Assembly (NCBI GenBank): GCA_944390795.1
Contig: CALXRI010000004.1
Location: 62,001 to 126,000, forward strand
Reading direction: 5' to 3'
Source of the DNA: an uncultured Victivallales bacterium
GTDB taxonomy: Bacteria; Verrucomicrobiota; Lentisphaeria; Victivallales; UBA1829
Length of the DNA: 64,000 bases
This document shows, one piece after another, positions 6,222-27,716 of the stretch. A model generated the notes under the pieces. That model saw nothing but the letters and a program-made list of their open reading frames with translations. It made no database searches and was not told the DNA's origin. A program made the translations under genes and the position numbers. How positions within the stretch are numbered: the stretch's first letter is position 1; the number at the start of each line of letters is the position of its first letter.

Positions 6222-7608
6222 TCCGCAGCAGGAAAACGCCGAACTGAAAGCGCGCCTGCACGCTTTTGCCGCAATCATGCGCCTGGGACGCGACGCGTTC
6301 GAGCAGCCGGATCTGTCTGCCGCGGCGGTGCACATTGTGAACAACTCCCGCACCCTGCTTGCCTATGAATCCTCCTCGCTCGCGGATCTGCGCGGAAAAA
6401 TCTCCATTCTGGCGGAGTATGCGCAGGTGGAGGTGAAGCAGCACACCGAATATGCATCGGATGTGAAAATCCTCTGCCGCAGTGTCGACCTGAGCGGAGG
6501 AGCCGTCGAACTGAAAGAGGGGAACGAGCCTTTCAGAAAGTTGACGGAGAAGGCGCGCGGCGCATTTGAACGCCTGACGGATGAAGGCGGTTCCCTGCTG
6601 CTGGTTCCTCTCCGCTCAGCGCGCTTTCGAAGTTCCGCGAAAGAGCCTTTTGTCTGGCTGATGACGTTCAAGGGCGCGGTTCCTCCCCATGCCGGAGCGA
6701 CGATTCCGCTGCTTGCCTCGGATTACGGCAATGCGCTCTGGAGCCATACCCCGCGGGGCGGGGCGCGCCTTCTGCTCAGATGGCTGCGCAGGATCACGCT
6801 GATCCGTGTTCTTCTGCTTCTGCTGCTGGCATTTGTGGTCGCCATGTTCACGGTGGATGTGGAGCATACCGTTTCCGCGGAGTTCGTGGTCAAGCCCGAT
6901 GCCGAATACAATTCCTACGCGTGGTTCGACTGTGTCGTGAAGAACTGTTTCTTCAATGACGGCGACGCCGTCAAGGCCGGCGACCGGATTCTGGAATACG
7001 ACACGGACCGGATGCGCTTCCAGCTGGCAGCCTCCGAAGCGGCTTTCAAGGAGGCGAACGCCGAATACGAGCAGGTGCTGAAGGCCTCTTTCACCGACCG
7101 GGAAAATCTCGGACGCCTGAAAGTCCTTGCATTCAAGCGCGACTCCGCCAAAGTTTCGATCGAGGAGGCGAAATGGTACCTGGCGCACAGCGTGGTGACC
7201 GCCCCCGTTTCCGGCATTCTCGCCATTGCCGGGGGAAGTGCGGACAAACTTGCCGGACGAGCTCTCCGGCTCGGTGAAAAACAGTTCGACATTCTTTCCG
7301 ACAAAGGGATGATCGCCGAGATCATGGTGAATGAAAAGGACGCTTCCGTCCTGGAAGGCAATCCGCGGATTACGCTGTTTCTGCATACCCGCCCGGAACT
7401 GCCGATTCCCGTGAAGATACTGTCTTCGCGTTTCTATCCGGAGCTGACCGAGCAGAACATTTACAGCTACAATGTGAAGGCGGAAATGGAGAACAACGTT
7501 CCCGGGCTCCGCTTCGGCATGCGCGGGGTTGCCAGGGTGACCGGTGAAAAAGTCAAGCTCGGCTACTATCTGTTCCGGAGTCTGGTTCTCTGGTACCGCG
7601 GCGTGTGA
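6211..7608 (+). CDS. GAF-like/HlyD fusion inner-membrane adaptor
   Basis: 465 residues in two parts. Residues about 1-190 have no signal peptide and resemble a GAF-type sensory fold (low-confidence fold call). One membrane segment follows at about 195-215 (ITLIRVLLLLLLAFVVAMF), then a HlyD-like periplasmic part with split lipoyl motifs, a hairpin and a barrel (APVSGILAIAGGS). The topology implies a cytosolic regulatory or docking domain and a periplasmic adaptor. It begins inside the preceding HlyD gene and ends in a GTGA overlap with the M50 gene, so the three products are probably made in proportion. No ATPase domain is present. Confidence 0.8.
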   Translation: MGNNPQQENAELKARLHAFAAIMRLGRDAFEQPDLSAAAVHIVNNSRTLLAYESSSLADLRGKISILAEYAQVEVKQHTEYASDVKILCRSVDLSGGAVELKEGNEPFRKLTEKARGAFERLTDEGGSLLLVPLRSARFRSSAKEPFVWLMTFKGAVPPHAGATIPLLASDYGNALWSHTPRGGARLLLRWLRRITLIRVLLLLLLAFVVAMFTVDVEHTVSAEFVVKPDAEYNSYAWFDCVVKNCFFNDGDAVKAGDRILEYDTDRMRFQLAASEAAFKEANAEYEQVLKASFTDRENLGRLKVLAFKRDSAKVSIEEAKWYLAHSVVTAPVSGILAIAGGSADKLAGRALRLGEKQFDILSDKGMIAEIMVNEKDASVLEGNPRITLFLHTRPELPIPVKILSSRFYPELTEQNIYSYNVKAEMENNVPGLRFGMRGVARVTGEKVKLGYYLFRSLVLWYRGV

Positions 7609-25087: not shown

Positions 25088-25105
25088 AATTAGCTTATTC
25101 TAATT
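25088..25105. promoter_or_regulatory. Metalloregulator-like dyad 1 at the feo promoter
   Basis: AATTAGCTTATTCTAATT is a perfect 6-base-arm dyad (AATTAG-N6-CTAATT) that overlaps the first bases of the -35 box. TTAG-N6-CTAA resembles the half-site geometry of DtxR/IdeR/MntR-type boxes; a Fur site is less like it. A second copy lies in the leader. Confidence 0.55.
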
Positions 25106-25131
25106 GAAAAATCTTTTTCCCGTGTTATATT
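25104..25131 (+). promoter_or_regulatory. Promoter of feoAB
   Basis: TTGAAA (25104-25109), a 16-base spacer and TATATT (25126-25131). Transcription from about 25138 would give a leader of about 110 bases before the first feoA start, carrying a hairpin and a second dyad. Confidence 0.7.
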
Positions 25132-25152
25132 GCGGATGTTTTGAAAGGTAAC

Positions 25153-25186
25153 GCGCACCGTTTCCTGCCGGAAAGGTGCGCATTTT
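25153..25186 (+). promoter_or_regulatory. Hairpin in the feoAB leader
   Basis: GCGCACC-G-TTTCC pairs with GGAAA-GGTGCGC across a TGCC loop, giving a 12-base-pair stem with one bulge, followed by ATTTTA. The short T tract makes an attenuator possible; mRNA stabilisation is the alternative. No known metal riboswitch was recognised. Confidence 0.5.
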
Positions 25187-25199
25187 ACGGAGAGTTGAG

Positions 25200-25213
25200 T
25201 TAGTTTAAGCTAA
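25200..25213. promoter_or_regulatory. Metalloregulator-like dyad 2 in the feo leader
   Basis: TTAGTTTAAGCTAA repeats the TTAG-N6-CTAA pattern of the site at 25088-25105, 110 bases apart. Two sites flanking a promoter could support looping or cooperative repression by an iron-sensing DtxR-type protein, none of which is encoded in the window. Confidence 0.5.
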
Positions 25214-25248
25214 TTCAGCTTGCGCTGACCGAGGGAAAGGACTGGCTG

Positions 25249-25566
25249 ATGAGAAGGAAGGAACGAAGTGCCGCTGCGTGCGGATGCATGCGGCAAAAAA
25301 TCTGTGAGCGCCGCAGCGCGCAAAGGGAAATGACTCTGGCGGAGCTCCCGGTCGGGACCTCGGCGACGATTCTGAAGGTGATGCCGCACTGGCGCGGGAG
25401 AAAGAAATTCGCCGATGTCGGGATTGTTCCCGGAACCGAGCTTCTGATGGAGGCTCATGCCCCGTTCGGAGGGCTGATGCGGGTCCGCGTCATGGAGACC
25501 AGCATGGCGCTGCATCGGGATGATGCGGCGCATGTCATGATGCGGCGCATGGAGGCTGCGGAATGA
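25249..25566 (+). CDS. feoA: FeoA ferrous iron transport accessory protein
   Basis: A small SH3-like cytoplasmic partner of FeoB. The conserved core starts at MTLAELPVGTSATILKV, and typical FeoA proteins begin about there (ATG at 25330, 78 residues). The ATG at 25249 is used because AAAGGA lies at good distance, whereas the inner start has only GGG immediately before it. If so, the protein has an unusual 27-residue basic, Cys-containing extension (CGCMRQKICERR). It ends in an ATGA overlap with feoB. Confidence 0.85.
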   Translation: MRRKERSAAACGCMRQKICERRSAQREMTLAELPVGTSATILKVMPHWRGRKKFADVGIVPGTELLMEAHAPFGGLMRVRVMETSMALHRDDAAHVMMRRMEAAE

Positions 25567-27716
25567 AGAAATGCTTCACGATTGTTCTTGCGGGAAATCC
25601 CAACTGCGGCAAAACCAGCATTTTCAATGCCCTGACGGGGGCGCGCCAGCATGTCGGGAATTATCCCGGCGTTACCGTGGAGAGCAAGATCGGGCGTTTC
25701 TCCCTGAACGGAACGGAGATCCTTCTGATCGATCTTCCGGGGATTTATTCCCTCTCCTCGAGTTCTCCGGAGGAGGAGGTTGCATTCCGTGAGCTGACGA
25801 AACCGGGGGTCGATCTGATCCTGAACGTGGTGGATTCCACCATCCCCCGGCGCAGTCTTTATCTGACGACCCAGCTTGCCGAACTGCATATTCCGATGCT
25901 TCTGGCGTTCAACATGAGCGACGATGCGGATCGGAAGGGACTGAAATTCGATCTGCCGAAACTGGAACGCTGTTTCGGATTCCCGGCTGTCCGGACGGTC
26001 GGATGCAGAAGCGGCGGCATCGGACAGCTGCTGGATGCGCTCGGCACCGCGCTGAAAAAAACGGAGTCCCGCACCGCCCCTGCGCTTTCCTATGGTGCGG
26101 ATATCGACGCGTCCATCGGGAAAATTGCAAATGCGATTGCCCCCCTGGCCCCGGAGCGCTTCAGGCATATTCCCGCACGCTTTTTTGCCGTCAAACTGCT
26201 GGAACACGACGCCTGTGTCCGGAATCTTCCGGAATTCCGGAGTGTTCATCCGCTGGTCGGGAACGAGATCCGGCATCTGCTTGAAAAGCATGCCATCGAC
26301 ACGGATACTTTCATGGCTGACCGCCGTTACGCCATACTCGCAGGAGCCTGCCGGAATGCGATCGGCATGACCGGGGAGCGAAGACGGGAAATCTCCGATA
26401 AAATCGATGCCGTGATGACCAGCAGATACATCGGTCTGCCGCTCTTTTTCCTGATTATGTATGCAACCTTCTGGCTTACCTTCACCTGCGCCGAGCCTTT
26501 GATGGGAATCATTGAAGAGGTCTTCGCAGCGCTCGCGGGGGGTGTCAAGATGCTCTGGCCGGAAACGACCCTGCCTTATCTGCGTTCGCTTCTGGCCGAC
26601 GGCGTCATCGGCGGCGTCGGCGGTGTGCTGGTCTTTCTGCCGAACATCCTTTTTCTCTTTCTGGCCATTGCGATTCTGGAGGATTCCGGCTATATGGCGC
26701 GCGCGGCTTTCGTGATGGACGGTGTAATGCGCCGGTTCGGGCTGCAGGGACGCTCCTTTGTGCCGCTGGTGCTTGGTTTCGGCTGCACGGTGCCGGCCAT
26801 CATGGCGACCCGCTGCATTGAGTCCGAACGCGACCGGAAGACTACGATCATGGTGCTTCCGCTGATGAGCTGCGGAGCGCGCCTTCCGATCTACGCGCTC
26901 ATCATTCCGGCCTTTTTCGCGGCGGAGTATCAGGCTTTTGTCATGTGGCTGATCTATCTGATCGGCGTCGGGATCGCGCTGATCGCCGCAAGGATCATGA
27001 AGGCCACCCTGTTCAAAGGAGACGGCGAAATCTATCTGATGGAGCTGCCGCCCTACCGTATGCCGACGCTCAGAAGCCTGCTGCTTCACATGTGGGACCG
27101 TGCCGGAATGTATGTGCGGAAGGCCGGGACGATCATTCTGGCGACAAGCATCCTGCTGTTCATCTGCAACACCTGGCCGGAAAAAACGGCGTTCTCAAAA
27201 GATTATGACAAGGCGGCGCAGCTCGTGAACGGAAACCCCGCTTTGAGCGGGGATGCCAGGGAAAACGCCCTGTCCGCACTGGAAAATGAGAAGCAGGCGG
27301 AATTGATGGAATACACGATTTCCGGACGGATCGGACACGCGCTTGAACCGCTCTTCCGCCCGATCGGATTTGACTGGAAACTGACAACCGCATCCATCGG
27401 CGCTCTTGCCGCAAAGGAGGTTTTCGTTTCCCAGCTCGGGATTCTCTACGCGGAAGGAGAGGCCGATGAGGACTCCGTTCCGCTCCGGGAGCAGCTGATC
27501 CGGAATTACACCCCGCTGCAGGCCTTCTGCATCATGCTTTTCTGCCTGCTTTCAATTCCCTGCTTTGCCACGCTTGCAATTATGCGAAGGGAGCTTAATT
27601 CCTGGAAGCTGACTGCCGCGGTGGCCGCCGGCATGTTTCTCCTGGCATATCTTGTCACGTTTCTCGTTTATCAGGCAGGATCTTTGTGCGGGATTGGAAC
27701 TGCGCTGGCGGGATGA
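25563..27716 (+). CDS. feoB: FeoB ferrous iron transporter with GTPase domain
   Basis: 717 residues. The N-terminal G domain has G1 GNPNCGKTS (residues 10-18), G3 DLPGIYSL and G4-like NMSD, followed by a guanine-dissociation-inhibitor-like segment, then about ten membrane segments with the two Gate motifs (GFGCTVPAIMATR; SCGARLPIYALIIPAFF). It imports Fe(II) through the inner membrane. Translation is coupled to feoA. No feoC is seen. The region between its stop and the rubrerythrin terminator carries no further gene. Confidence 0.97.
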   Translation: MKKCFTIVLAGNPNCGKTSIFNALTGARQHVGNYPGVTVESKIGRFSLNGTEILLIDLPGIYSLSSSSPEEEVAFRELTKPGVDLILNVVDSTIPRRSLYLTTQLAELHIPMLLAFNMSDDADRKGLKFDLPKLERCFGFPAVRTVGCRSGGIGQLLDALGTALKKTESRTAPALSYGADIDASIGKIANAIAPLAPERFRHIPARFFAVKLLEHDACVRNLPEFRSVHPLVGNEIRHLLEKHAIDTDTFMADRRYAILAGACRNAIGMTGERRREISDKIDAVMTSRYIGLPLFFLIMYATFWLTFTCAEPLMGIIEEVFAALAGGVKMLWPETTLPYLRSLLADGVIGGVGGVLVFLPNILFLFLAIAILEDSGYMARAAFVMDGVMRRFGLQGRSFVPLVLGFGCTVPAIMATRCIESERDRKTTIMVLPLMSCGARLPIYALIIPAFFAAEYQAFVMWLIYLIGVGIALIAARIMKATLFKGDGEIYLMELPPYRMPTLRSLLLHMWDRAGMYVRKAGTIILATSILLFICNTWPEKTAFSKDYDKAAQLVNGNPALSGDARENALSALENEKQAELMEYTISGRIGHALEPLFRPIGFDWKLTTASIGALAAKEVFVSQLGILYAEGEADEDSVPLREQLIRNYTPLQAFCIMLFCLLSIPCFATLAIMRRELNSWKLTAAVAAGMFLLAYLVTFLVYQAGSLCGIGTALAG

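Follow-up and report, generated by a model that had tools for sequence, protein, structure and literature searches.

A repressor-like site beyond a terminator-like element in iron-uptake leaders of Victivallales suggests a new twist on repression

In the Victivallales, a group of gut bacteria, iron-uptake genes carry one repressor-like site at the promoter and a second after a stop signal, an arrangement that suggests a new twist on repression. We propose that the efficiency of termination at a leaky intrinsic terminator would be set by a metal-sensing repressor that sits on the DNA in front of the polymerase, its operator held at a constant spacing from the terminator, and that this roadblock-gated terminator, with operators for initiation and termination served by one sensor, may be a standard regulon-wide promoter design in this order and a new class of attenuator; we regard the proposal as evenly poised between right and wrong. 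Its parts, namely DtxR-type operators, roadblocks and intrinsic terminators, are of known kinds, and our comparison suggests that the new element is the fixed coupling of the operator to the terminator U-tract. No account of an operator whose spacing to a terminator U-tract is fixed was recognised in the open-access literature searched.

The window, by which we mean the whole 64-kb stretch of DNA analysed, contains two exact TTAG-N6-CTAA dyads upstream of feoAB, TTAGCTTATTCTAA at 25090-25103 (dyad1) and TTAGTTTAAGCTAA at 25200-25213 (dyad2), at a spacing of 110 bp. Only 0.08 dyads are expected in 64 kb, and a count of two was reached by 1 of 100 shuffles; the two sites, and the 12-bp hairpin between them, are as described in the earlier note. 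With its flanks, dyad1 (AATTAG-CTTATT-CTAATT, 25088-25105) has exact 6-bp arms and is a predicted operator that abuts or overlaps the -35 box of a predicted sigma-70-like promoter on the forward strand (TTGAAA-16-TATATT, 25104-25131; 10 of 12 matches), which is similarly positioned with respect to dyad1 in related genomes. The -35 hexamer TTGAAA (25104-25109) adjoins dyad1 and is followed after 16 nt by the -10 hexamer TATATT (25126-25131). The leader hairpin, GCGCACC(G)TTTCC-TGCC-GGAAAGGTGCGC at 25153-25181 on the same strand, has 12 bp, one bulged G and a folding energy of about -18.4 kcal/mol, and its 3' end lies 18 nt before dyad2. It runs into a weak U-tract, ATTTTACG (25182-25189, forward strand), at -18 to -11 from dyad2. 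Dyad2 itself (AGTTAG-TTTAAG-CTAATT with its flanks, 25198-25215) is a predicted operator that lies within the transcribed leader, about 62 bp past the predicted transcription start (set 7 nt after the -10 hexamer).

The genes behind this leader, both on the forward strand, are feoA (25249-25566; Pfam PF04023 over residues 28-99, E 2.2e-14) and feoB (25563-27716; Pfam FeoB_N, Gate and FeoB_C). The FeoB of the window is 88% identical over its full length to that of a genome of the same genus (G002) and 88% identical to that of CALXSJ010000006.1, and the closest named relatives of its genome by FeoB are metagenome genomes of Victivallales and Lentisphaeria. FeoA of the window is extended at its N-terminus by a stretch that includes a CGC motif, and an internal start near 25330 is possible. 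N-terminal FeoA extensions with cysteine clusters are frequent in the lineage (CSCGCG, CPCCCG; L030, L031, L051, L055, L057 and others), and the cluster is a possible metal- or cluster-binding element.

A scan for the dyad near iron genes, suggested by the earlier note, found it recurring at iron-linked genes. The 3.44-Mb draft genome from which the window comes has nine exact dyads, against 77 matches to a control pattern read backwards, and eight of the nine form four pairs, 95-120 bp apart. These pairs precede feoAB, a DUF3793-flavodoxin operon, an ExbB-family/DUF2149 operon and a prepilin-like gene that comes after a ZIP transporter gene. The ninth dyad (C22:48264) is single, lies among transposase-like open reading frames (read by eye) and is probably there by chance. 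A relaxed scan (6-bp arms, up to two mismatches) recovered all eight paired sites among 23 sites, against 22 for the control; the other 15 look like background.

Across 137 genomes of the order Victivallales (Lentisphaeria), there are 51 pairs in 35 genomes against 16 control matches, and pairs at other spacings (60-89 and 121-151 bp) add 27 places each, with 6 and 10 control matches, respectively. A stricter pair pattern was positive in 15 of 387 genomes from the phylum, 14 of them from the same order and one from the same class, with one control match, and was absent from the genomes in this set assigned only to the same phylum. Sorted into motif-based classes, with Pfam run on examples, the first genes after 45 pairs comprise 14 FeoA, 9 prepilin-like, 7 DUF3793, 3 FMN-binding, 3 of one small protein and 1 DtxR, with 8 unclassified.

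Several of these loci merit separate mention. The prepilin-like genes (type II secretion or pilus; including those at L013, L112, L113, L115, L118, L127, L128 and L141), together with a gene of one kind that follows the pairs at L124 and L125 and whose product at L124 was checked and has secretin domains, indicate that secretion-like proteins may be iron-controlled. At L154 (G039:C341:70565-70724), at least four TTAG-N6-CTAA dyads lie within 160 bp with no promoter-like -10 between them, unlike in most pairs. Between the dyads of the ExbB/DUF2149 operon (L010, about 7256-7300, minus strand) we noted by eye a short leader open reading frame (MSAVFN) with a good ribosome-binding site.

Most oriented pairs share a common layout: dyad1, a sigma-70-like promoter, a hairpin and/or a U-tract, dyad2 and then the gene. 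The paired sites, the place of the promoter, the hairpins, the register between U-tract and dyad2 and the association with iron-type and dtxR genes can all be read directly from the DNA. By position, dyad2 lies 3' of the predicted promoter and 5' of the start codon, that is, as an operator inside the transcribed region, at a median of 24 nt from the start codon. The 51 pairs were oriented by the -10 hexamer alone, which gave a unique orientation for 43, both orientations for 1 and none for 7; the promoter consensus and the formula of the terminator score were taken from general knowledge. The best hairpin-plus-T element lies 16-22 nt before dyad2 in 31 of the 43 oriented pairs and elsewhere in 3, and 9 have none. 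With a score threshold (-30) chosen after a first look at the data, 25 of the 43 have a terminator-like hairpin, and in all 25 the gap to dyad2 is 16-22 nt, against a mean of 1.6 such hairpins (maximum 5) and of 0.3 at 16-22 nt (maximum 2) in 100 rounds of dinucleotide shuffling of the inter-dyad sequence. A hairpin followed directly by a U-tract, as in an intrinsic terminator, is accordingly found in 25 of 43 pairs and is weak in the window, with its 4 T.

The register is clearest when the pairs are aligned on dyad2. For this we used 45 pairs, the 43 oriented ones and two found later (L155 and L159), or 44 after one near-identical pair was removed. A T-tract occupies positions -19 to -12, position -16 being a T in 40 of the 45, and at least 5 T fall in this interval in 34 of 44 pairs (31 of 41 after stricter removal of related pairs), against a mean of 2.2 and a maximum of 8 in mononucleotide shuffles. 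The T-richest 8-mer begins 17-22 nt before dyad2 in 36 of 44 pairs. An 8-mer containing at least 6 T is likewise present in 36 of the 44, and among these the distance from U-tract to dyad2 has a standard deviation of 2.7, against 9.3 for dyad1 to dyad2, 10.4 for the -10 hexamer to the T-tract and 34 for dyad2 to the start codon. The window is less typical: just 4 T fall in its -19 to -12 register, against 5-8 T in those 34 of 44 pairs, it is one of the 8 of 44 exceptions when the U-tract is placed by the T-richest 8-mer, and a fixed-rule terminator scan of the window did not list the feoAB leader hairpin.

Hairpins accompany the T-tract less regularly. A hairpin of -8 kcal/mol or lower precedes the fixed T-tract in 19 of 35 pairs (shuffles: mean 3.4, maximum 6), and one of even -5 kcal/mol is missing in 13 of 35 pairs with a U-tract. 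At most loci the inter-dyad sequences are unrelated, with 44 of 45 sharing fewer than 30% of 8-mers with each other. RNAalifold on four leaders from the same genus gave 9 base pairs, 3 of them changed on both sides, at a weak energy of -4.1. Because the stems are too unlike one another in length and sequence for covariation analysis, we relied on the register test instead: what is kept of the leader stem singled out in the earlier note is its structure and its constant spacing to dyad2, and its sequence differs.

Pairs at other spacings served as a second set, in which 44 pairs lay in the loci returned and 22 were uniquely oriented under a slightly wider -10 rule (15 had no -10 and 7 had both orientations). 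At least 5 T fall at -19 to -12 in 16 of the 22, one of which (L257) was known beforehand and had prompted the search, against a shuffle mean of 2.0 and maximum of 8; without related pairs the count is 11 of 17, or 10 without L257 (shuffles: mean 1.5, maximum 6). An offset scan of this set peaks at -19 to -12, tied with the neighbouring window. The register is kept although the spacing of the dyads has changed, and the U-tract therefore follows dyad2.

Further leaders show what can become of dyad2. In feoAB of six relatives from the same family (L033, L034, L055, L056, L057 and L058), dyad2 is a degenerate TTAG-N6-CAAA with 2-4 T in register; eight feoAB leaders with an intact pair at about the usual spacing have 4-7 T. 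This variant occurs in 6 of the 137 genomes of the order, against 0 for the control. Genomes of genus g5 have two FeoB copies, the closer one 69-74% and the second 64-67% identical, and the closer copy carries an exact dyad in 6 of 11 genomes. In five of these six (L272, L274, L275, L276 and L279), a CAAA variant with 4-5 T lies about 297 bp after dyad1. The sixth, G007 (L282, about 610, reverse strand), has a lone dyad before FeoB with 7 T in the usual register and no partner in the stretch examined. In these leaders dyad2 may be decaying, may serve as a weaker operator or may be part of a different layout; the CAAA variant in the place of dyad2 in one group, and about 297 bp after dyad1 in the other, implies that dyad2 can decay or move.

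The identity of the sites points to a regulator of the DtxR/IdeR type. The IdeR half-site TTAGGNNNNCCTAA is 14 bp long and bound by one dimer, the full IdeR/DtxR box measuring 19 bp (PMC8464063), and the dyad matches the half-site geometry TTAGG-N4-CCTAA in its TTAG...CTAA arms and its spacer of 6. Position 5 of the half-site (G) is not conserved here (4 of 44 dyad1, 8 of 44 dyad2), nor is position 10 (C; 6 of 44 and 3 of 44). Among 26 distinct dtxR-type genes preceded by a sufficient length of sequence, an exact dyad was found in the 320 nt upstream of 7 and in none of the other 19; dyads upstream of both iron genes and dtxR are where operators of a DtxR/IdeR-type regulator are expected. In Victivallis vadensis DSM 14823 (G052 contig 61, identical to NZ_QEKH01000061.1 across 5975 compared bases), a DtxR-FeoA gene stands behind the complete unit of dyad, promoter, terminator and dyad, and in G001 a pair precedes genes for DUF3793, a flavodoxin, a small Cys-containing protein and a DtxR-type protein (named by similarity to Pfam-checked relatives). 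Between dyad2 and dtxR of V. vadensis (L269, about 1606-1740), an apparent Cys-rich open reading frame of 45 codons, read by eye, overlaps the dtxR start.

The DtxR dimerisation domain was found in all 21 genomes searched. The genome of the window has two DtxR-type genes, a DtxR-FeoA fusion on C13 assigned by Pfam and a gene on C65 that lies 3' of a flavodoxin-like gene and was recognised by eye; no exact dyad was found within 320 nt upstream of either. The C13 fusion stands beside a second feoB (L109:1203-4170, G000:C13) and has MntR, DtxR and IdeR as relatives in the PDB. We infer that the regulator is a DtxR/IdeR-type protein that binds TTAG-N6-CTAA, and we infer likewise both the binding protein and the metal. 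The earlier suggestion of a DtxR-like rather than a Fur-like regulator fits in its first half, given the half-site geometry and the dtxR genes preceded by dyads; its second half does not follow, as Fur-family genes are present in 18 of the 21 genomes, with two in that of the window. One of the seven dtxR-type genes with a dyad belongs to a Sedimentisphaerales (Planctomycetota) genome (L194, exact dyad 73 nt before the SLEDYLE motif), and the motif may extend beyond Victivallales.

Taken together, we consider it rather probable that a DtxR-type repressor loaded with iron prevents initiation when bound to dyad1, and that the same repressor on dyad2 stops the polymerase on the U-tract, from where the terminator releases it. 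In this model, feoAB would belong to an iron-type regulon whose DtxR/IdeR-type repressor binds TTAG-N6-CTAA as a single dimer. With metal, repressor on dyad1 would block the promoter, and repressor on dyad2 in the leader would be a roadblock to any polymerase that escaped dyad1; the RNA 3' end of the blocked polymerase would rest on the U-tract of the intrinsic terminator, and the hairpin would then release it. Without metal, both dyads would be free and the polymerase would read through, so that the terminator must be leaky on its own. One sensor would thus exert dual control, through a dyad1 that blocks initiation and a dyad2 that makes a leaky terminator efficient. The place of the proposed roadblock would be consistent with the behaviour of EcoRI Gln111, a rigid roadblock at which RNA polymerase halts, leaving the RNA end 14 nt before the site (PMC5499547): a point 14 nt upstream of dyad2 falls inside the U-tract, 4-6 nt past the stem where the gap is 18-20. 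Under a forward-translocation model of termination, a roadblock could be expected to hinder release, with repression resulting either way. The combined repressor and RNA-level control put forward earlier agrees with a promoter dyad plus control after initiation, and the hairpin is best read as a terminator tied to dyad2.

Plain repression from two operators is an unlikely account, in which a DtxR-type protein would occupy both dyads, dyad2 would be an ordinary roadblock or auxiliary operator, and the terminator would be a separate, constitutive damper. Repressor roadblocks are well known (PMC10310618, PMC4132739), and the terminator-like element is missing in some pairs (for example, L130, L131 and L148). 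However, this account leaves unexplained why the distance between U-tract and dyad2 is fixed while the other spacings vary.

It is improbable that dyad1 controls the promoter of a short, terminated, RyhB-like small RNA, with the gene expressed by partial readthrough. Promoter and terminator would yield an RNA of about 40-60 nt, as estimated from the spacings, but the unrelated inter-dyad sequences are unlike a conserved regulator RNA, and the register of dyad2 is again left unexplained.

We rejected looping, an RNA hairpin at dyad2, a known RNA family and a second promoter at dyad2 on phasing, flanking pairing, Rfam and promoter score, respectively. DNA looping around the promoter, between dimers on dyad1 and dyad2, would suit two operators 85-120 bp apart, as in the analysed set, but is very improbable: the spacings are not convincingly phased with the helix (Rayleigh p about 0.15 for 10.5 bp, 0.66 for 10.0 and 0.03 for 11.0, uncorrected), and oriented pairs are found also at 67-89 and 121-141 bp. 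There is equally little to be said for an RNA-only switch in which dyad2 acts as an RNA hairpin in translation or antitermination: RNA folding places dyad2 of the window within a 13-bp hairpin, yet the flanks of dyad2 are complementary over 0-1 bp in 29 of 45 pairs and over at least 2 in 16, transcription reaches dyad2 after the U-tract, the stem is disrupted in the CAAA variant, and Rfam gave no family at the gathering score, its one match, to Phe_leader, falling below threshold (22 against 55 bits). That dyad2 overlaps a second promoter is hardly credible despite its closeness to start codons, as the promoter score around it (7.38) equals that of shuffles (7.18), against 9.56 for the first promoter.

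We therefore return to the terminator gated by a roadblock, for which the nearest precedent is YtgR of Chlamydia, a PVC-group bacterium as well. At the trpRBA intergenic region of Chlamydia trachomatis, this DtxR-family protein represses a promoter and, depending on iron, ends upstream transcripts at its operator (PMC6504234; follow-up PMC7755916). The likeness lies in one DtxR-family repressor serving both promoter repression and transcript ending, as proposed here; in contrast, YtgR uses one operator, and the portion of the source available describes no hairpin and U-tract at a fixed distance from it (PMC6504234). With the IdeR/DtxR operators of Actinobacteria, the dyads share the 14-bp TTAG-N6-CTAA geometry and the place before iron uptake genes and, in some genomes, the regulator gene (PMC8464063); here, however, positions 5 and 10 are free, single half-sites are paired around a terminator, the lineage is Victivallales, and the regulators examined include DtxR-FeoA fusions with MntR as best PDB match.

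Roadblocks of LacI, PurR, CcpA and CodY likewise place an operator in the transcribed region, where it blocks elongation (PMC10310618, PMC4132739). In vivo, polymerase blocked in the LacI system is cleared mainly by Mfd (about 90%), and leakage past LacI roadblocks placed 30-60 bp from the promoter rises as the promoter gets weaker, very close ones also leaking more (PMC4132739). In the window, dyad2 stands about 60 bp past the predicted start. In Victivallales, a built-in terminator would remove the stalled polymerase, instead of mainly Mfd, which scored over the cut-off in 20 of 21 genomes. Attenuators such as the trp leader, TRAP and riboswitches also have a terminator hairpin between promoter and gene, whereas the leaders described here have no Rfam match at the gathering score, and the decision to terminate would rest with a protein bound to the DNA in front of the polymerase.

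Roadblock repression leaks and needs Mfd, and a terminator under the blocked polymerase would, if our reading is true, solve both problems. It would then offer a simple design rule for tight two-layer repression and turn the response of intrinsic termination to an obstacle ahead into a testable question. We found no account of a DtxR regulon or of iron control in Lentisphaerota or Victivallis in the open-access literature searched, and the layout would, if confirmed, give a first picture of iron control in Lentisphaerota.
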